DNA of 64,000 nt from Chitinophaga pinensis (lineage in GTDB: Bacteria; Pseudomonadota; Gammaproteobacteria; Burkholderiales; Burkholderiaceae_C). Position numbers and translations under genes: made by a program. The stretch is from contig CALPRQ020000017.1 in NCBI GenBank assembly GCA_943326015.2, forward strand, positions 1 to 64,000, given 5' to 3'. This document shows, piece by piece, positions 6,009 through 56,338 of this stretch; the stretch's first letter is position 1, and each line of letters opens with the position of its first letter. Below the pieces are notes generated by a model. The model was not told the origin of the DNA and searched no databases. It was given only the letters and a program-made list of their open reading frames with translations.

Positions 6009-7265
6009 ATGCAAATCCCCTACGAATTCCTGCTCGGCTGGCGCTACACGCGCGCCGGCCGCGCCACCCGGCGCAACGGCTTCATCTCCTTCATCAGCGG
6101 CGTCTCGATGCTGGGCATCGCGCTGGGCGTGGCGGCGCTGATCGTCGTGCTCAGCGTGATGAACGGCTTCCAGAAGGAGGTGCGCGACCGCATGCTCGGC
6201 GTGCTGTCGCATGTCGAGGTCTTCACGCCCGATGGTGGCGCGCTGCCCGACCCCGCGACCACGCTGCGCGAATTGCGTGCGCACCCGGAAGTGGTCGGTG
6301 CTGCGCCCTTCATCGCGGCGCAGGGCCTGCTCGCGCGCGGCGAGAACATGAAGGGCGTGCTGCTGCGCGGCATCGATCCGGCCCAGGAGCCCGCCGTCAC
6401 CAGTCTGGCCGGCGAGCTGGCCAGGACCGTGCTGCCGCAGCTGCAGCCCGGGGCGTTTGGCATCGTGCTCGGTGGTGCGCTGGCGCAGAGCCTGGGCCTG
6501 CGCGTGGGCGATGCCGTGACGCTGATCGCACCCAGCGGCCAGGTCACGCCGGCCGGCGTGGTCCCGCGCCTCAAGCAGATGAGCGTGGTCGGCGTCTTCG
6601 ACTCGGGCCACTACGAGTACGACTCGACGCTGGCCTTCATCCATATCGACGACGCGGCGCGCATCTTCCGGCTCGAAGGGCCGACCGGCGTGCGGCTCAA
6701 GTTGCAGGATCTGCACCGCGCGCGCGAGGTCACGCATGAATTGGCTGGCATGGTCAGCGGCGACCTGCTGCTGCGCGACTGGACGCGCCAGAACCGGACC
6801 TGGTTTGCCGCTGTCCAGCTCGAAAAGCGCATGATGTTCATCATCCTGACTTTGATCGTCGCGGTCGCGGCCTTCAACCTGGTCTCGACGCTGGTGATGA
6901 CCGTGACCGACAAGCGCGCCGACATCGCGATCCTGCGCACGCTGGGCGCGAGTCCGCGCAGCATCATGTCCATCTTCGTGGTGCAGGGTGCGCTGATCGG
7001 CGTGATCGGCACCCTGTCCGGCCTGCTGCTGGGCCTCGGCATCGCGTTCAACATCGACACCCTGGTGCCGGCGCTCGAGTCGCTGCTGGGCACCAGTTTC
7101 CTGCCGCAGGAAATCTACCTGATCAGCCGCATGCCGAGCGAGCCGCAGCAGGGCGACATCCTGCCGATTGCGCTGATTTCGCTGCTGCTGGCCTTCGCGG
7201 CCACGCTCTATCCGAGCTGGCGTGCCAGCCGCGTCAACCCGGCGGAGGCGCTGCGTTATGAGTGA
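6009..7265 (+). CDS. lolC: Lipoprotein-releasing ABC transporter permease LolC/LolE
   Basis: Inner-membrane subunit of the LolCDE complex, which extracts outer-membrane-destined lipoproteins from the inner membrane and hands them to LolA. The 418-aa protein has one TM segment near residues 25-50, a large periplasmic domain and three TM segments in the C-terminal third (FtsX-like fold). The ATG at 6009 follows a GGAG site at 6001-6004. A much longer upstream open frame has no coding character. The end overlaps lolD by 8 bp. Only one permease gene is present, so it probably works as a homodimer (LolF-like), which is an inference. Confidence 0.93.
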
Positions 7266-7947
7266 ACCCAACATCGTCCTGAGCGCGCGTGGCCTGAGCA
7301 AGCGCTTCCAGGAAGGCCGGCTCGATGTGAGCGTGCTGCAGGGCGTGGACCTCGACATCCGGGCCGGCGAGACGCTGGCCATCGTCGGTGCCTCGGGCTC
7401 GGGCAAGAGTACGCTGCTGCATCTGCTGGGTGGGCTCGATGCGCCCAGCGCGGGCCGCGTGCTGCTGCAGGGCCAGGAGCTGGCAACCCTGGGGCAGGCC
7501 GCCCAAGGCGAGCTGCGCAACCGCCATTTGGGTTTCGTCTACCAGTTCCACCATCTGCTGCCGGAGTTCACTGCCCAGGACAACGTCGCCATGCCGCTCT
7601 GGATTCGCCGTCTGCCGCGCGAGGAGGCCGCGGCCGAGTCCGCGCGCTGGCTCGAACGGGTCGGCTTGGGCGAACGCCTGCTGCACCGTCCGTCCGAGCT
7701 CTCGGGCGGCGAACGCCAGCGGGTGGCGATCGCGCGTGCGCTGGTGACGCGGCCGGCCTGCGTGCTGGCCGACGAGCCGACCGGCAACCTCGACCGCACC
7801 ACGGCCGACAGCGTGTTCCAGCTGATGCTGCAGCTCGCGCGCGAGCAGGGCACGGCTTTCGTGCTGGTCACCCACGATGTCGAACTGGCGCGGCGCTGCG
7901 ACCGTGTGCTGCACCTGCGCTCGGGCTTGTTGTCGGCCGGCGACTGA
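7258..7947 (+). CDS. lolD: Lipoprotein-releasing ABC transporter ATPase LolD
   Basis: ATPase of the LolCDE complex that powers lipoprotein release; cytoplasmic, membrane-associated. At 229 aa it shows the Walker [10 protein letters not shown] (44-52), Q-loop [10 protein letters not shown], the ABC signature [15 protein letters not shown], Walker [12 protein letters not shown] and the switch histidine in VLVTHD. The ATG at 7258 overlaps the lolC end by 8 bp. A GGCGGAGG ribosome-binding site at 7241-7248 lies inside lolC. No terminator is evident afterwards; the next gene has its own promoter. Confidence 0.95.
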
Positions 7948-15822: not shown

Positions 15823-15911
15823 GCCCCGGTGGTGAAATTGGTAGACACATCGGACTTAAAATCCGCCGCCTCTAATCGGGCGTACCGGTTCGATTCCGGT
15901 CCGGGGCACCA
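15823..15911 (+). tRNA. tRNA-Leu (anticodon UAA)
   Basis: 89 nt including the encoded CCA. The acceptor GCCCCGG pairs with CCGGGGC, the anticodon loop CTTAAAA reads UAA, there is a long class II variable arm, and the T-arm contains GGTTCGATTCC. A possible -10 element TACACT lies at 15808-15813. Confidence 0.95.
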
Positions 15912-33723: not shown

Positions 33724-33892
33724 GGCAGTCCTTGGAAAAATATGCTTCCCTGCGCGGTCGTGACGGTGACAGGGGCTGCCCAGGCGAACGGCTGAATTGG
33801 CTGTACGCTTCCCAGTGGTAATCCCACCTCGGCAGGGGCAGCCAGCAAGGCTGGCCCCGGCCTATCGCCAGTCGCGCACGGGCGGGATTTTA

Positions 33893-41589: not shown

Positions 41590-41674
41590 TGGTGCCCGAG
41601 GTCGGACTCGAACCGACACACCTTGCGGCGGGGGATTTTGAATCCCCTGCGTCTACCGATTTCGCCACCCGGGC
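41590..41674 (-). tRNA. tRNA-Leu (anticodon CAA)
   Basis: 85 nt including CCA. On the minus strand the acceptor GCCCGGG pairs with CTCGGGC (one G-T), the anticodon loop TTCAAAA reads CAA, a long class II variable arm is present, and the T-arm contains GGTTCGAGTCC. It stands alone between the epimerase-like gene and cysM. Confidence 0.95.
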
Positions 41675-48182: not shown

Positions 48183-51101
48183 TCAGCCCAGGCGCTGCAG
48201 CTGCTGCTCGATCTTGGCCAGCGTGGCACCGAAGTCGGCCAGGCGCTTCTGCTCCTGCTCGATCACGGCCGGCGGGGCCTTGGCCACGAAAGCCTCGTTG
48301 GACAGCTTGCCCCTGGCCTTGGCGATCTCGCCGCTCAGGCGCGCAGCTTCCTTGCCGAGGCGGGCCTTCTCGGCTGCGACGTCGATCTCCATGAACAGGC
48401 ACAGGCGCGACTCGCCGACCACGGCCACCGGCGCGGCCTGCGCGGCTTCGGTCCAGCTGGCCTCGTCGGCGAACACCTTGACCTCGCTGAGCTTGGCCAG
48501 CGACTGCAGCACCGGCGCGATGCTCGACAGGAAGGCCGCGTCGCCGACCGCATACAGCGGCAGGCGCTGCGCCGGCGAGACGTTCATCTCGCCGCGCAGG
48601 TTGCGGCAGGCGTCGACCATGGCCTTGAGCTGGGTCACATGGGCTTCCGCTGCGGCGTCGATGCGCTCGGGCGCGGCGACGGGGTAGGCCGCGATGCTGA
48701 CCGACGCGCCCGCGCGGCCGGCGACCGGCGCCACCTTCTGCCACAGTTCCTCGGTGATGAAGGGGATGATCGGGTGCGCCAGCCGCAGGATGGTTTCCAG
48801 CGTGCGGATCAGCGTGCGGCGGGTGGCGCGCTGCTGCTCAGGGCTGCCGGTGTTGATCTGGACCTTGGCGATCTCGAGGTACCAGTCGCAGAACTCGTTC
48901 CAGACGAAGTCGTAGATCGCGTTGGCGACGTTGTCGAGCCGGTAGTCGGCAAAGCCCTTGGCCACCTCGGCCTCGACCCGTTGCAGGCTGGAGACGATCC
49001 AGCGGTCGCACTGGCTGAAATCGAGATAGCCGCCAGCCGCGCAGGCTTCAGTGGCGTGCTCGCTCAGGCCGCAGTCCTGGCCCTCGCAGTTCATCAGCAC
49101 GAAGCGGGTGGCGTTCCAGAGCTTGTTGCAGAAGTTGCGGTAGCCCTCGCAGCGCTTGCTGTCGAAGTTGATGCTGCGGCCCAGCGAGGCCAGCGCCGCG
49201 AAGGTGAAGCGCAGCGCGTCGGCGCCGTAGGCCGGGATGCCTTCGGGGAATTCCTTCTCGGTCTGCTTGCGCACCTTGGGCGCCGTCTCGGGCTTGCGCA
49301 GGCCGGTGGTGCGCTTGTCCAGCAGGGGGGCGAGCTCGATGCCGTCGATCAGATCGACCGGATCGAGCACGTTGCCTTCCGACTTGGACATCTTCTGGCC
49401 CTGCGCGTCGCGCACCAGGCCGTGGATGTAGACATGCTTGAACGGCACCCGGCCGGTGAAGTGGGTCGTCATCATGATCATCCGGGCCACCCAGAAGAAG
49501 ATGATGTCGTAGCCCGTGACCAGCACGCTGCTGGGCAGGTAGAGGTCGTAGTCCTGGGTCTTGTCCGGCCAGCCCATGGTGCTGAACGGCACCAGCGCGC
49601 TGGAGTACCAGGTGTCGAGCACGTCCTCGTCGCGCTTGAGGCCGGCGGCCAGCAGCGCGGCGCGCTGCGACTCGCCCAGGCCGGCAATGCGGGCCTCGAA
49701 CTGGGCCTGTGCATCGGCCTCGTGGCGCGCGACATAGACCTGGCCCTCGGCGTCGTACCAGGCCGGGATCTGATGGCCCCACCAGAGCTGGCGGCTGATG
49801 CACCAGTCCTGGATGTTGTTCATCCACTGGTTGTAGGTGTTGACCCAGTTCTCGGGCACGAAGCTGACCTGGCCGCTGGTGACCGCATCAATCGCCTTCT
49901 GCGCAATCGATTTGCCGGTCGGGTCCTGCTCGGAGACCTTGGTCATGGCGACGAACCACTGGTCGGTCAGCATCGGCTCGACCACCTGGCCGGTGCGGGC
50001 GCAGCGTGGCACCATCAGCTTGTGCTTCTTGACCTCGACCAGCAGGCCGGCGGCTTCCAGGTCGGCGACTACTGCCTTGCGCGCGTCGAAGCGGTCCAGG
50101 CCGCGGTACTGCTCGGGGCCATGGTCGTTGATCCTGGCGTCGAGCGTCAGCACGCCGATGATGGGCAGCTGGTGGCGCTGGCCGACCGCGTAGTCGTTGG
50201 CGTCATGCGCGGGCGTGACCTTGACCACGCCGGTGCCGAACTCCTTGTCGACATAGCTGTCGGCGATGACCGGGATCTCGCGCTCGCACAGCGGCAGCTT
50301 GACGTACTGGCCGATCAGATGGGCGTAGCGCTCGTCCTCCGGGTGCACCATGACGGCGACGTCGCCCAGCAGGGTTTCGGGGCGGGTGGTCGCGACCACC
50401 AGCTGGCCCGCGCCGCTGGACAGCGGGTAGGCGATATGCCACAGGCTGCCGTCCTCTTCCTCGCTCTCGACTTCGAGGTCGGACACCGCGCTCATCAGCA
50501 CCGGGTCCCAGTTGACCAGTCGCTTGCCGCGGTAGATCAGGCCCTGCTGATACAGCTGGACGAAGGTCTCGCTCACGACCTTGGAGAGCTTGTCGTCCAT
50601 CGTGAAGTACTCGCGGCTCCAGTCCACGCTGTCACCCATGCGGCGCATCTGGGTCGTGATGGTGTTGCCGGACTGCTCCTTCCACTCCCAGACCTTGGCG
50701 ACGAAGTTCTTGCGCGCCTCCTCGGGGGTCGGACCCATGTCGTGGCGGCTTAGCCCCAAGCCCTGCAGCTGGCGCTCGACCACGATCTGGGTCGCGATGC
50801 CGGCGTGGTCGGTGCCCGGAATCCAGGCCGTGTTGAAGCCCGCCATGCGGTGGTAGCGCGTCAGGCTGTCCATGATGGTCTGGTTGAAGGCGTGGCCCAT
50901 GTGCAGCGTGCCGGTCACGTTGGGCGGCGGCAGCTGGATCGCGAACGAGGGCGCGCTGGCGTCGGCCGCACCCGTGCCGCGCAGGCCGGCGGCGCCGTAG
51001 CCGCGCTGCTCCCACTCGGGGCCCCAATGGGCTTCCAGGGCCGCGGGCTCGAAGGACTTGGACAGGGATTGCAGGCCGGGTTGGGCGATGGCGTCGGTCA
51101 T
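48183..51101 (-). CDS. valS: Valyl-tRNA synthetase
   Basis: Class I aminoacyl-tRNA synthetase charging tRNA-Val. The 972-aa length is normal. The HIGH motif appears as HMGH at 67-70 ([16 protein letters not shown]), the KMSKS motif as [13 protein letters not shown], the editing domain includes [19 protein letters not shown], and the C-terminal coiled-coil tRNA-binding arm ([19 protein letters not shown]) is intact. It is monocistronic and ends at the shared terminator. The accessory segment with restriction-system debris begins just upstream of it. Confidence 0.97.
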
Positions 51102-51229
51102 GTGGCTAATGGTGTTCTGGGAGTCTGGGGAGGTCGGCCGCAGCGGTGTCAGGGCGCTGGTATGAGGCTGGCCTCGGCAAGCGGTCGATTTTACGGGGAG
51201 GCCAAAAATCGTTGCAGTAACATCCTCGA

Positions 51230-51453
51230 ATGAACCGCGAACAACTCAAGAAGCTGGAAAAAGTCCTCTGGACGGCCCCGACAAGCTGCGCGCCAACTCC
51301 GATCTCAAGGCCAGCGAATACAGCACGCCGGTGCTGGGCCTGATCTTTGAGTTGCCTGTTACTTACGAGCGTGCCTTGTTCAAGCAGAAATGCGACAACG
51401 TCTATGACCTGATGGTGGATCACGCGAGCCGGGGTCGTCGATGGGCGGCGTAG
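51230..51453 (+). pseudogene. Type I restriction-modification scar: 'hsdM' start joined to 'hsdR' end
   Basis: The first part reads like the start of HsdM ([16 protein letters not shown]), then a one-base loss at about 51274-51278 shifts frame, and the HsdM-like text continues as DKLRANSDLKASEYSTPVLG followed by LIF. It then joins directly to ELPVTYERALFKQKCDNVYD, which matches the C-terminal end of HsdR subunits, ending in HASRGRRWAA and TAG at 51451. About 40 residues of HsdM and 30 of HsdR remain; hsdS and nearly all of both genes are gone. It precedes an ATPase-nuclease gene by 47 bp. Confidence 0.75.
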
Positions 51454-51500
51454 CGGGTCAAGCCCATCATCATCACTTTGAATGAAAGACGGCATCCAGC

Positions 51501-53057
51501 ATGACCGCCCGCAAGAAACTTCCGATTGGCATCCAGACCTTCGCCAAGATCCGCGAGCAGGACTACTACTATGTGGACAAGACGCCGCAGATCCTGCGCC
51601 TGATCGAAGAGGGCACGCATTACTTTCTGAGCCGGCCCAGGCGCTTTGGCAAAAGTTTGCTGCTGGACACCATCGCCGAGCTGTTCGAGGGCAACAGGAC
51701 GTTGTTCGAGGGCCTGCATGCCGATTTGCACTGGGACTGGTCGCGCCAGTTCCCGGTGATTCGCATCAGCTTCAGCGATGGGGTGCTGCACAGCCTGACG
51801 GCCCTGCAACATCGGATTCGTTTGCTGCTGGCTGACAACTATGTCCGACTGGGGCTGGACCTGCCCGAAGACCAGGACATTCCCGGCTTGTTCGCCAAAC
51901 TGCTGCAATGGGCTCACGCCCAAGGCGGTGGGCGCGTGGTGGTGCTGATTGACGAATACGACAAGCCCATCCTCGACAACCTGACTGAGCCCGGGATCGC
52001 GCGCCAGATGCGTGACGGCCTGCGCGACCTGTATTCGGTGCTCAAGGGGCAGGACGCGCACATCAAGTTCGCGATGCTGACGGGTGTTTCCACGTTCAGC
52101 AAGGTGTCGCTGTTCTCGGGGCTCAACAACTTGAATGACATCACGGTTGATGCGCGCTACTCGGCGATCTGCGGCTACACCGACGAGGACGTCGATACCG
52201 TATTCGCGCCCGAGCTGCCCGGGCTCGACCGGGACGAGGTCCGGCGCTGGTACAACGGCTACAACTGGACCGGCACCAGCGTCTACAACCCCTTCGACCT
52301 GCTGCTGCTGTTCAGCAAGCGCGAGTTCCAGCCCTACTGGTTCGAGACTGGCACGCCGACCTTCCTGGTCGAGCTGCTGACCGAGCGCCAGACCTTCACG
52401 CCCGAGCTGGGGCAACTGGTCGCGATGGAGTCGCTGCTGTCGTCGTTCGATGTCGGGCAGATTTCGACCGAGGCCTTGCTGTTCCAGACCGGCTACCTGA
52501 CGATCGGCAGCCAGTTCCGCATGGGCGCGCGCACCGAGTACACGCTCAAGTACCCGAACCAGGAGGTCGAGGCCAGCTTGAACGGTGCGCTGCTGCAGAG
52601 CCTGACAGGCTCCCTGTCCTTGTCGGGACGCCAGAGCGGACAGCTCTACCGGCTGCTGCAGGCCAACGACTTCGCTGGTCTGCGCTTGCTGTTCACGGCC
52701 TTCTTCGCCGGCATCCCGAACGACTGGTACCGCAGCAACACAATCGCCCATTACGAGGGCTATTACGCCAGCGTGTTCTACAGCCATTTCGCGGCGCTGG
52801 GGCTGGACATCAGGCCCGAGGACATCACGAACAAGGGCCGCATCGACATGACGGTGCTGTTCAACCAGAACATCTACCTGTTCGAGTTCAAGGTGGTCGA
52901 ACAGGTGCCCGAGGGCAGGGCGCTGCAGCAGATCAGGGATCGGGGCTATGCCGACAAGTACCGCGCGCGCGGCGAACCGATCCACCTGATTGGCGTGGAG
53001 TTCAGCAAGGCGCAGCGCAGCGTGGTGGGCTTCGAGGTCGAAACCCTGGTGAGCTGA
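51501..53057 (+). CDS. AAA-ATPase / PD-(D/E)XK nuclease fusion (DUF1703-like)
   Basis: 518-aa protein of a widespread but poorly understood family. The N-terminal ATPase has an unusual Walker A SRPRRFGKS (44-52) and Walker B VVVLIDEYD (146-154). The C-terminal third has a PD-(D/E)XK nuclease core: Asp 449 in GRIDMTVL, Glu 462 and Lys 464 in YLFEFK, and a later QIRDRGY helix. The opening LPIGIQTFAKIREQDYYYVDKT is typical. Such genes are frequent in mobile or variable regions; a defence or selfish role is suspected. Here it follows a restriction-system scar. Confidence 0.88.
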   Translation: MTARKKLPIGIQTFAKIREQDYYYVDKTPQILRLIEEGTHYFLSRPRRFGKSLLLDTIAELFEGNRTLFEGLHADLHWDWSRQFPVIRISFSDGVLHSLTALQHRIRLLLADNYVRLGLDLPEDQDIPGLFAKLLQWAHAQGGGRVVVLIDEYDKPILDNLTEPGIARQMRDGLRDLYSVLKGQDAHIKFAMLTGVSTFSKVSLFSGLNNLNDITVDARYSAICGYTDEDVDTVFAPELPGLDRDEVRRWYNGYNWTGTSVYNPFDLLLLFSKREFQPYWFETGTPTFLVELLTERQTFTPELGQLVAMESLLSSFDVGQISTEALLFQTGYLTIGSQFRMGARTEYTLKYPNQEVEASLNGALLQSLTGSLSLSGRQSGQLYRLLQANDFAGLRLLFTAFFAGIPNDWYRSNTIAHYEGYYASVFYSHFAALGLDIRPEDITNKGRIDMTVLFNQNIYLFEFKVVEQVPEGRALQQIRDRGYADKYRARGEPIHLIGVEFSKAQRSVVGFEVETLVS

Positions 53058-53094
53058 GCCCGGCTCGGTCGCCAGTCGGCCAGCAGGCGCCAAC

Positions 53095-54615
53095 TCATGA
53101 GTGGGTGCGCGCCAACTTGAAGAGGCTGACCGTGTGCACCATCGAGTTGGCCTGTTGCTCCAGCGATTGCGCCGCCGCCGAGGCTTCCTGCACCAGATCG
53201 GCATTCTGCTGCGTGGCCTGGTCGATCTGGATGATGGCCTGCTTGACCTCGTCGATGCCTTGCGCCTGCTCCTGGCTGGCGGTGGTGATCTCCTGCATGA
53301 TGCTGGCCACCCGCTGCACGCTGTCGACGATCTCGTGCATCGTGCCGCCGGCCTTCTCGACCAGTTGATACCCCGCGCTGACATCGTTGACCGAGGCGCT
53401 GATCAGGGTCTTGATTTCCTTGGCGGCCGCGGCGCAGCGCCCGGCCAGGTTGCGGACCTCGCTGGCCACGACGGCAAAACCGCGCCCTTGCTCGCCGGCG
53501 CGGGCGGCCTCCACGGCGGCATTCAAGGCCAGGATGTTGGTCTGGAAGGCGATGCCGTCGATCACGCTGATGATGTCCGAGATTTTCCGGGACGAAACAT
53601 TGATCGCTTCCATCGTGTGCACGACCTCGGACACGACCGAACCTCCCTTGCGTGCAATTCCTGCAGCAGCCTCGACCAGCTGGTTGGCTTGTTGGCCGTT
53701 CTCGTAGTTCCGCTGCACCGTGTGGAACAGCTCGCTCATTGACGAGGTGGTCTGCTCCAGCGCGCTGGCCTGCTGCTCGGTGCGCGATGCCAGGCGCAGG
53801 TTCTCGCTGGCGATCTGGCTGGTTGCCGTCGCCATGGCCTCGGCCCCCTGGCGGATGCTGGCGACCACGTTGGTCAGATTGTCCTGCATGGATTTGAGGT
53901 TGGCGATCAGGCTGTTGCTGTCGCCGGCCTGCAGCACGATGGACTGGCTCAGGTCTCCGTTGCCGACATGTTGCACGATGTTGGCGGCGTCCGCCGGCTC
54001 CGCCCCCAGGTCCCTCCAGACCGAGGCGATGATGGCGCGCGAACCCAGGCCCAGGCCCAGCACGATCAGCAGGCCGCAGGCGGTGTTGATCAGCAGGCCC
54101 TGCTGCTGGGAAGCCGCCAGGCGGGTGAAATGCTCATCGAGAGTGACATGCGCCTGCTGCCGCGACAGCTGGGTCTGGTGTGCCAGTTCCTTTTGCGCCG
54201 CCCCCATGCGCTGCGGCAGCCCGGGGTCCATGTTCTTGTTGAGCATGCCTTGCGTGGTGCTCATCGCCGCGGCCTGGTAGGCTTCGAAGGCCTGGCTGAG
54301 ATTGCCGACCAGCTCGGATTTGCCTTCGAGCGCGCGCGCCTGGTTCAGCGATTTCCGGATACCTTCGACCGTGGCTTGTGCCTCCTTGAGCCGGTCGATG
54401 TCATCCTCGGTGGCGGCGGCCTGGAAATCGGCCTGCAACTGGTTGACGCCGCGCTCGGCTTCAAACAGGTGTTCCAGGAATGGGGTTTCAACCGTCCGAA
54501 TCAGTTCCAGGTTGCGATTGTTGTCCATCCCCATCACCAAGCCCTGGACCAGACCGGCTGCGAGTGCCACGCCCACGCAGAGGGGGAGCAGCCATATCTT
54601 CGAACGAAATTTCAT
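53095..54615 (-). CDS. Methyl-accepting chemotaxis protein
   Basis: 506-aa transmembrane chemoreceptor. Two TM helices (about 7-29 and 171-197) bracket a periplasmic helical domain (about 30-170) of 4HB/CHASE3-like character. A HAMP segment (about 198-250) and the cytoplasmic signalling domain follow, with the conserved hairpin tip AFQTNILALNAAVEAARAGE (about 356-375). No C-terminal CheR-docking pentapeptide is seen (ends ARTHS). It is the third gene of a porin / binding-protein / chemoreceptor unit, 80 bp after the binding-protein gene. Confidence 0.93.
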   Translation of the reverse strand: MKFRSKIWLLPLCVGVALAAGLVQGLVMGMDNNRNLELIRTVETPFLEHLFEAERGVNQLQADFQAAATEDDIDRLKEAQATVEGIRKSLNQARALEGKSELVGNLSQAFEAYQAAAMSTTQGMLNKNMDPGLPQRMGAAQKELAHQTQLSRQQAHVTLDEHFTRLAASQQQGLLINTACGLLIVLGLGLGSRAIIASVWRDLGAEPADAANIVQHVGNGDLSQSIVLQAGDSNSLIANLKSMQDNLTNVVASIRQGAEAMATATSQIASENLRLASRTEQQASALEQTTSSMSELFHTVQRNYENGQQANQLVEAAAGIARKGGSVVSEVVHTMEAINVSSRKISDIISVIDGIAFQTNILALNAAVEAARAGEQGRGFAVVASEVRNLAGRCAAAAKEIKTLISASVNDVSAGYQLVEKAGGTMHEIVDSVQRVASIMQEITTASQEQAQGIDEVKQAIIQIDQATQQNADLVQEASAAAQSLEQQANSMVHTVSLFKLARTHS

Positions 54616-54695
54616 CTGCGAGCTCTTGGGAAATGACGAGGTCAGGCATTGGATGCCATTCGATTGCCGGACGGCAGGGGCGGTGTCGGTGGGTC

Positions 54696-55121
54696 TTATT
54701 CCACGCTGAGCAGAACCTTGACGGAGGAGTCCACCGCGTTTTTCTCTATGTAGCCCACGGCATTTCCGTTCTCGGCCACCATCTTCTTGACCGTCGCGGA
54801 ATTCGGCACTTCCTTCGGCAGCGCGGCCTTGCCGGAAAATACCAGGCGTGCCCAGGTGGCCTTCACCTGGGCCGCGGACTTGCCCGTGACCTTGGTATAG
54901 AACAGTTCGCGCACGGCCGCGGATTCGGGCTGGTCGAGCAGCACGGCCATGCCCAGGCCCGGCAGCTGTTCCGACTTGCCCAGGAACAGGCTTGCCGCCT
55001 GCTCGGTCGTCAATTTCGAGGCGCTGCTGTGCGCGCCCGCGACCAGGGCGACCTGTGCATGGCTGGCCTGGGCCGCCAATCCGGCGATGGCGAGGATCAG
55101 TGTGTGGGTGAAATGGTTCAT
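54696..55121 (-). CDS. Small periplasmic phosphate-binding-like protein
   Basis: 141 aa with a signal peptide (about 1-23, ending ASHA). The fragment KLTTEQAASLFLGKSEQLPG and the C-terminal GNAVGYIEKNAVDSSVKVL resemble a half of PstS-type periplasmic binding proteins, a size class common in Burkholderiales next to outer-membrane porins. It follows the porin gene by 13 bp and precedes a chemoreceptor, suggesting it captures a ligand for sensing rather than for transport. Phosphate as ligand is only inferred from family. Confidence 0.8.
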   Translation of the reverse strand: MNHFTHTLILAIAGLAAQASHAQVALVAGAHSSASKLTTEQAASLFLGKSEQLPGLGMAVLLDQPESAAVRELFYTKVTGKSAAQVKATWARLVFSGKAALPKEVPNSATVKKMVAENGNAVGYIEKNAVDSSVKVLLSVE

Positions 55122-55134
55122 GCCTATGGCCTCA

Positions 55135-56301
55135 TCAGAACACATGGTCGTAGCTGACGCGCAACAGCCTGATGTGCCCGCCAAAGTTGTCGGTGCTGTC
55201 GACCTGCCGATCCAGCTGGACCTTGACGGCCGTGCCGGACGCCACGTCATAGCGCAAGGTGGCCGAGGCATGGTGGTAGGAGCCCGGAACGTACTGGGTG
55301 CTGTCCGTGGTGCTTTCGGTGTAGCGGCTGTAGCTGAGGAAGGGCGTCCACTTACCCAGGCGCATGCCGACGCCGACGGTCTGGGCGGGCGCGCTCACCT
55401 TGTAGCCGCTCTCGGTGTGGTCGCGGCTGAGTCGCGCGAATTCCGACAGGATGAACCAGCGGTCCAGATCCAGGTTGGCCGCCAGTCCGTAGGTTTTCAG
55501 GACGGCCTTGTCATCGATGGGGTTGTCGACATGGGGATTGCGGGTCTTGACATCCGCGCCCATGGCCACGGCGCGCAACGTCAGAGGCCCCCGGCTGATT
55601 TCGAGATCGGCGCCGAGGATGTTGTTCCATTGAACTTCGGTATTGCCTGCGGGATAGTACAGCTTCTGGTACAGGGATTTCTTGTTCTTTTCCTGGCCAG
55701 TGAAGACGCTGGTCGTCAGCTGGCTGTCGCCCAGGTCGCGGTTGTAGCGCAGGCTGGCACCGTTGTAGTTGGTGGCTTCCCAGCCGTAGATTTCCGGCGG
55801 AGGCGTGATCCAGGGGTAGGCAACGCCGATATCCTGGAAGTCGGAGTAATAGTAGAGCGGAATGCGCTTGCGGCCCAGCTGGACCTCCCAGTTGCCATCG
55901 AGCTTGTAACTGCCAAAAGCCCAGGCCAGGTCCGGCTTGGCATTGCTGCCGCGACTGACCACATGCCCGGTGAAACTCGCTTGGGGCGTGAAGGTGTAGG
56001 TACCCTGGAGTCCGACCCTGGATTCCTGGGCCAGCGACAGATGCTCGCCATAGACGCCGGCATTGCTCCAGTCAGCCACATAACATGGACATTGAACGCC
56101 ATTGATGGTGGTGGGGCCCTTGTTGGCAATGTAATTGTCGTCCAGCTTGCCATTGAGGACCTTGCCCCCAACCACCGACACATAGCCCGAAAGCTTGAAG
56201 TTTGATTCAGGGATGTCGTCCTGGGACCAGGATGGAGTTGCAAGCAACAAGTTGAAGCCGAGTGTCAGCCATCCCATGCGGCTTTTTAATTTTACTTCCA
56301 T
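55135..56301 (-). CDS. Outer-membrane porin-like beta-barrel protein
   Basis: 388 aa with a signal peptide (about 1-26, ending SWS). The remainder alternates hydrophobic/hydrophilic residues with many aromatic-rich strands (WEVQLGRKRIPLYYYSDFQD, RVGLQGTYTFTPQASFTGH) and ends in Phe (RVSYDHVF), the C-terminal signature of outer-membrane barrels. An unusual VQCPC segment near residue 70 adds two cysteines. No specific porin family could be named. A TATAAT box lies at 56333-56338. It heads the porin / binding-protein / chemoreceptor unit. Confidence 0.8.
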   Translation of the reverse strand: MEVKLKSRMGWLTLGFNLLLATPSWSQDDIPESNFKLSGYVSVVGGKVLNGKLDDNYIANKGPTTINGVQCPCYVADWSNAGVYGEHLSLAQESRVGLQGTYTFTPQASFTGHVVSRGSNAKPDLAWAFGSYKLDGNWEVQLGRKRIPLYYYSDFQDIGVAYPWITPPPEIYGWEATNYNGASLRYNRDLGDSQLTTSVFTGQEKNKKSLYQKLYYPAGNTEVQWNNILGADLEISRGPLTLRAVAMGADVKTRNPHVDNPIDDKAVLKTYGLAANLDLDRWFILSEFARLSRDHTESGYKVSAPAQTVGVGMRLGKWTPFLSYSRYTESTTDSTQYVPGSYHHASATLRYDVASGTAVKVQLDRQVDSTDNFGGHIRLLRVSYDHVF

Positions 56302-56332
56302 TTTGATTTTTGCATTTTTTGTGGTGGTTCGA

Positions 56333-56338
56333 ATTATA
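56333..56338 (-). promoter_or_regulatory. -10 element before the porin gene
   Basis: Perfect TATAAT on the minus strand in an AT-rich tract, overlapping the 3' end of truC. It would start transcription near 56326, about 25 nt before the porin ATG. No good -35 is seen, so an activator may be needed. Confidence 0.45.

Follow-up and report, generated by a model that had tools for sequence, protein, structure and literature searches.

A probable deletion remnant of a type I restriction-modification operon beside valS

A stretch of 224 bases, 51230-51453 in the window (the whole DNA that was analysed, 64,000 nucleotides), sits between valS (51101-48183, minus strand) and a gene for an AAA-ATPase/PD-(D/E)XK protein (51501-53057, plus strand; hereafter the AAA gene). 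With a probability of roughly 0.95, this stretch, referred to below as the stump, is a dead remnant of a type I restriction-modification (R-M) operon left by an internal deletion. Recognisable ends of hsdM and hsdR are present in operon order and on the same strand, and the coding capacity is broken both by a frameshift in the hsdM start and by the loss of the middle. Loss of R-M systems by deletion and hsd pseudogenes are well-known events, and the stump is a further case of this known kind of event, the loss of a defence system. It adds an example, not a new principle, and its value lies in being a clean, datable footprint: because both ends of the operon were kept, it shows where the deletion lies and how large it was.

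Reading Frames and Identity of the Two Halves

Two short, overlapping ORFs, 51230-51343 and 51331-51453, are found in the stump, and annotators should not call either of them a gene. The first, starting from the ATG at 51230, encodes 14 residues in the original hsdM frame and then runs out of frame. The frame containing position 51268 encodes DKLRANSDLKASEYSTPVLGLIF up to 51348 and next ELPVTYERALFKQKCDNVYDLMVDHASRGRRWAA, ending at the stop codon at 51451-51453; from 51268 to this stop it is open over 61 codons. Codons 1-14 of hsdM in the original frame occupy 51230-51271 on the plus strand, as located by tblastn with the HsdM of a relative carrying an intact operon (G017) and by DNA alignment to five intact hsdM genes. 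The same alignment places a one-base frameshift at about 51264-51280. Comparison with the intact homologues assigns 51277-51348 to hsdM codons 17-40 in the shifted frame, and 51349-51453 is assigned to the last 34 hsdR codons plus the stop by the HsdR match and by alignment with the intact genes. The hsdM-like and hsdR-like similarities to the five intact genes meet at 51348/51349, and the deletion junction is thereby placed to within a few bases.

In tblastn searches against a ten-sequence database, G017 HsdM matches the window at 51230-51277 with residues 1-16 (81% identity) and at 51274-51348 with residues 16-40 (92%), with an E-value of 2.5e-11. Residues 1061-1094 of the 1094-residue G017 HsdR match 51349-51450 with 65% identity and an E-value of 2.1e-9. 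At the DNA level, the stump is 86% identical to the G017 hsdM start over about 119 bases (E 4.9e-32). From 51280 on, all 23 of the HsdM-like residues are equal to those of four intact relatives (G017, G403, G390 and G073), and 22 of 23 to those of the fifth (G373). A Pfam scan of each half alone gave no match at E-values up to 1, which we attribute to the shortness of the pieces, at 37 and 61 aa against 135 positions in the HsdM_N model. The initial annotation had described the stretch as an HsdM-like N-terminus, interrupted by a one-base frameshift and joined to an HsdR-like C-terminus. This description is borne out, since both halves match the G017 proteins; neither the HsdM nor the HsdR match, whose absence would have spoken against it, is missing.

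Comparison with Intact Operons

A search of 399 family genomes with the 61-residue frame gave matches in 21 of them at E-values up to 0.001. Both ends were matched in seven genomes, comprising five with intact operons and two wrecks (G031 and the window's own). In G017, G403, G390, G073 and G373, the HsdM-side and HsdR-side matches lie on one contig and on the same strand in long open frames, of 702-829 residues for HsdM and 1087-1110 for HsdR. A gene of 397-466 aa directly follows hsdM in all five and precedes hsdR, with extra ORFs between that gene and hsdR in G073 and G373. The G017 proteins carry HsdM_N and N6_Mtase (HsdM) and HSDR_N, SWI2_SNF2 and T1RH-like_C (HsdR), all over the Pfam cut-offs. 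The HsdS of G017 was called by PADLOC, its Pfam Methylase_S score being just below the cut-off (20.4 versus 22 bits), and HsdS in the other four genomes was named by place and size.

Compared to the type I R-M system of G017 (HsdM PF12161/PF02384, HsdS, HsdR PF04313/PF18766/PF11867), the stump matches the first 40 hsdM codons and the last 34 hsdR codons, and the hsdM and hsdR ends have the same order and strand. It differs in its frameshifted hsdM start and in the loss of the methylase core, HsdS, and the nuclease and motor domains. The stump's HsdM part ends at codon 40, and the N6_Mtase domain spans residues 156-442 of G017 HsdM. At 51348 the hsdM sequence passes straight into hsdR, and G017 HsdS has no tblastn match in the window at an E-value of 1e-4. 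Of HsdR, residues 1061-1094 alone are kept; in G017 the nuclease and SWI2/SNF2 motor domains lie at 16-232 and 295-521. With the methyltransferase core, the specificity subunit and the restriction motor-nuclease gone, the stump can therefore provide no R-M activity, and nothing suggests a working product from it.

The number of bases absent in the window is 6658 when measured against G017, 6571 against G403, 6493 against G390, 7501 against G073 and 9405 against G373. The five intact genomes thus agree with the internal deletion that had been postulated, taking most of hsdM, nearly all of hsdR and, to judge by the gene order in intact relatives, hsdS. These operons stand elsewhere than beside valS, in other genera. 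A comparison of the valS-upstream locus in relatives, suggested as a check, revealed no intact hsdMSR operon: none was present at this locus in four congeners or in four other genomes looked at. At 80 named valS loci (the best 80 of 597 relatives; at least 5 kb of upstream DNA in 68 and at least 1 kb in 79), no upstream match to G017 HsdM, HsdS or HsdR, or to the AAA gene, was found at E-values up to 1e-5. By ValS these 80 reach no more than 91% identity, and almost all that bear a name belong to genera labelled Comamonadaceae or Burkholderiales, from which the family would be Comamonadaceae. As an intact copy at the locus was found in none of the relatives examined, the ancestral operon at valS is deduced from operons located elsewhere.

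Deletion and Decay

We propose that a type I R-M operon of the order hsdM-hsdS-hsdR, reading away from valS, once stood between valS and the AAA gene. A single internal deletion, estimated from the intact relatives at roughly 6.5-9.4 kb, would then have joined hsdM codon 40 to the last 34 hsdR codons, the two sides having no more than a few bases in common where they meet. The one-base frameshift in the hsdM start may have arisen before or after this deletion. A single deletion by illegitimate recombination would be the simplest account of the mechanism. The intact relatives have no common sequence longer than a few bases at the joint. No tRNA is found at the stump as an insertion site, the tRNAs of the window being located at 15823-15911 and 41590-41674 only, nor is any Rfam element, as Rfam matches occur only at the tRNA sites and at 33771-33885. 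The latter is a minus-strand ZMP/ZTP riboswitch, scoring 58.7 bits.

Decay by substitution is slight. With the codons around the frameshift left out, 45 positions are the same in all five intact copies, and the stump departs from them at 3. The corresponding values for each intact copy against the other four are 1/46 (G017), 1/46 (G403), 0/45 (G390), 2/47 (G073) and 10/55 (G373), so that the residues of the stump, frameshift apart, are no more changed than those of the most distant intact relative. The case for decay hence rests on the deletion and the frameshift and not on loss of constraint, and, judged from these substitutions, the loss in the window's lineage may well have been fairly recent.

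Two alternatives to a scar were weighed. The stretch could be a short functional fused gene encoding a domesticated small protein, a reading for which the uninterrupted run of 61 codons from 51268 to the stop speaks. However, the HsdM start and the remainder are in different frames. Scanning 51090-51520 for a simple sigma-70 consensus, a weak test, gave no promoter-like site, and only the window's own genome among the 399 has a match across the joint, with none spanning it in the 398 others. The same short fused gene in relatives, which had been named as evidence against a scar, is thus found in none of them, and we consider a functional gene scarcely credible.

It is also conceivable that the assembly has wrongly joined two places of a still intact operon, as the draft genome comes in 71 contigs. 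Against this, valS and the AAA gene are neighbours in the congener G003 too, and the middle of hsdM and hsdR is found nowhere else in the assembly, the completeness of which is given as 98.92%. In the window's genome, the stump is the sole match of G017 HsdR, and G017 HsdM has one further match besides it, an unlike HsdM (28%) on contig C56. Within the assembly, the middle is therefore gone and not moved, and a misjoin appears very improbable. Support for the deletion reading is strong. A different type I R-M system, unlike this one, is still present in the same genome on contig C56 (L061); there HsdM_N scores above its cut-off, HSDR_N matches in part, and HsdS relatives are matched as well.

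The Locus in Congener G003

The congener G003 offers a second state of the same locus. Its interval between valS and the AAA gene is 205 bases long, and the leader upstream of the stump (51211-51225, plus strand) is present there as an exact copy at the matching place. This common leader includes GTTGCAGTAACATCC. Of 60 relatives, none besides G003 has an exact copy; 7 of the 60 have it when one mismatch is allowed, and a backward-read control also yields a few matches. The stretch right after the leader in G003 looks, by its bases, like a more eroded hsdM start. Taken together, the shared leader and this hsdM-like start suggest that the operon or the stump may be older than the divergence of the two species.

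We accordingly lean towards an hsd operon or stump having been present at the locus already in the common ancestor with G003, which would keep a smaller remnant of the hsdM start. Besides the exact 15-mer of the valS leader, the AAA gene is next door in both species. Over the 36 bases at the matching ATG, G003 agrees with the stump at 22. Of 4382 other ATG-anchored 36-mers, taken from the window and from the loci of six relatives, only 1 scores as high (mean 11.2). Compared with four intact hsdM starts, the G003 bases agree at 18-20 of the 36. However, the remainder of the G003 interval scores against the stump at a level that shuffles also reach, in 308 and 473 cases out of 1000. The shuffles thus lend no support to G003 having kept a piece of the hsdR end or of the joint, nor to a joint shared with the window, the likeness there not going beyond chance. 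Moreover, the nearest congener by ValS, G002 (98%), lacks the leader, the stump and the AAA gene, as do G001 and G004, and a common-ancestor origin consequently calls for losses or segment exchange. The window's species and G003 may have lost the operon independently.

The valS Neighbourhood and the AAA Gene

The interval between valS and rlu (51102-56337 in the window) varies among five congeners. In G001 and G004, valS is followed directly by rlu (a pseudouridine synthase) and yaaA. In G002, MCP, PstS-like and porin-like genes lie between valS and rlu, and all three are also found in the window, which has the stump, the AAA gene and the MCP, PstS-like and porin-like genes in this interval. 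In G003 the AAA gene stands alone between the two. The loci of these congeners gave no hsd match. We presume the designations rlu, yaaA, PstS-like and porin-like from the sequences.

The view of the site as a former defence locus that was emptied or replaced holds in its first part. Replacement of the hsd operon by the AAA gene is rejected, as G003 has the same gene, 84% identical, beside valS without hsd genes. The protein encoded at 51501-53057 carries AAA-ATPase_like (PF09820) and PDDEXK_9 (PF08011) domains and has no PADLOC or NCBIfam match; the window's genome holds six PF09820 genes. The DUF1703 family, to which the AAA gene belongs, is described as expanded in a Cardinium symbiont, its role being unclear (PMC6387759). 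Relatives of the gene occur on plasmids of Azotobacter, Sphaerotilus and others. DNA similarity to plasmids was found in nine records, eight of which match the AAA gene part only; the ninth, from Acetobacter vaccinii, is similar to the hsdM start over 68 bases.

It is unlikely that the stump and leader are kept as the 5' region of the AAA gene, which the leader of the lost operon would then drive. If true, the loss of one nuclease system would have rewired another gene. No promoter or terminator consensus was found at the stump.

Other Wrecks of the Operon

A second wreck of the same kind of hsd operon with both ends kept was observed in G031 (contig C212, L022, 6642-8070). As in the stump, the two ends survive and the middle is largely gone: HsdM residues 1-65 and a tail of HsdR are kept, in short frames of 80 and 112 aa. 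It differs in its end points and in about 0.9 kb with a small ORF between the pieces. Two wrecks among the seven genomes with both ends suggest that decay of this kind of operon is not rare in the family. Partial HsdR pieces were found in two further genomes: G422 keeps the last 288 aa on the stretch read, and G362 keeps the last 92 aa at 305 bases from a contig end, and so may be cut by the assembly. The small ORF in the G031 wreck (7160-7471) resembles, by eye, a HigB/RelE-type toxin.
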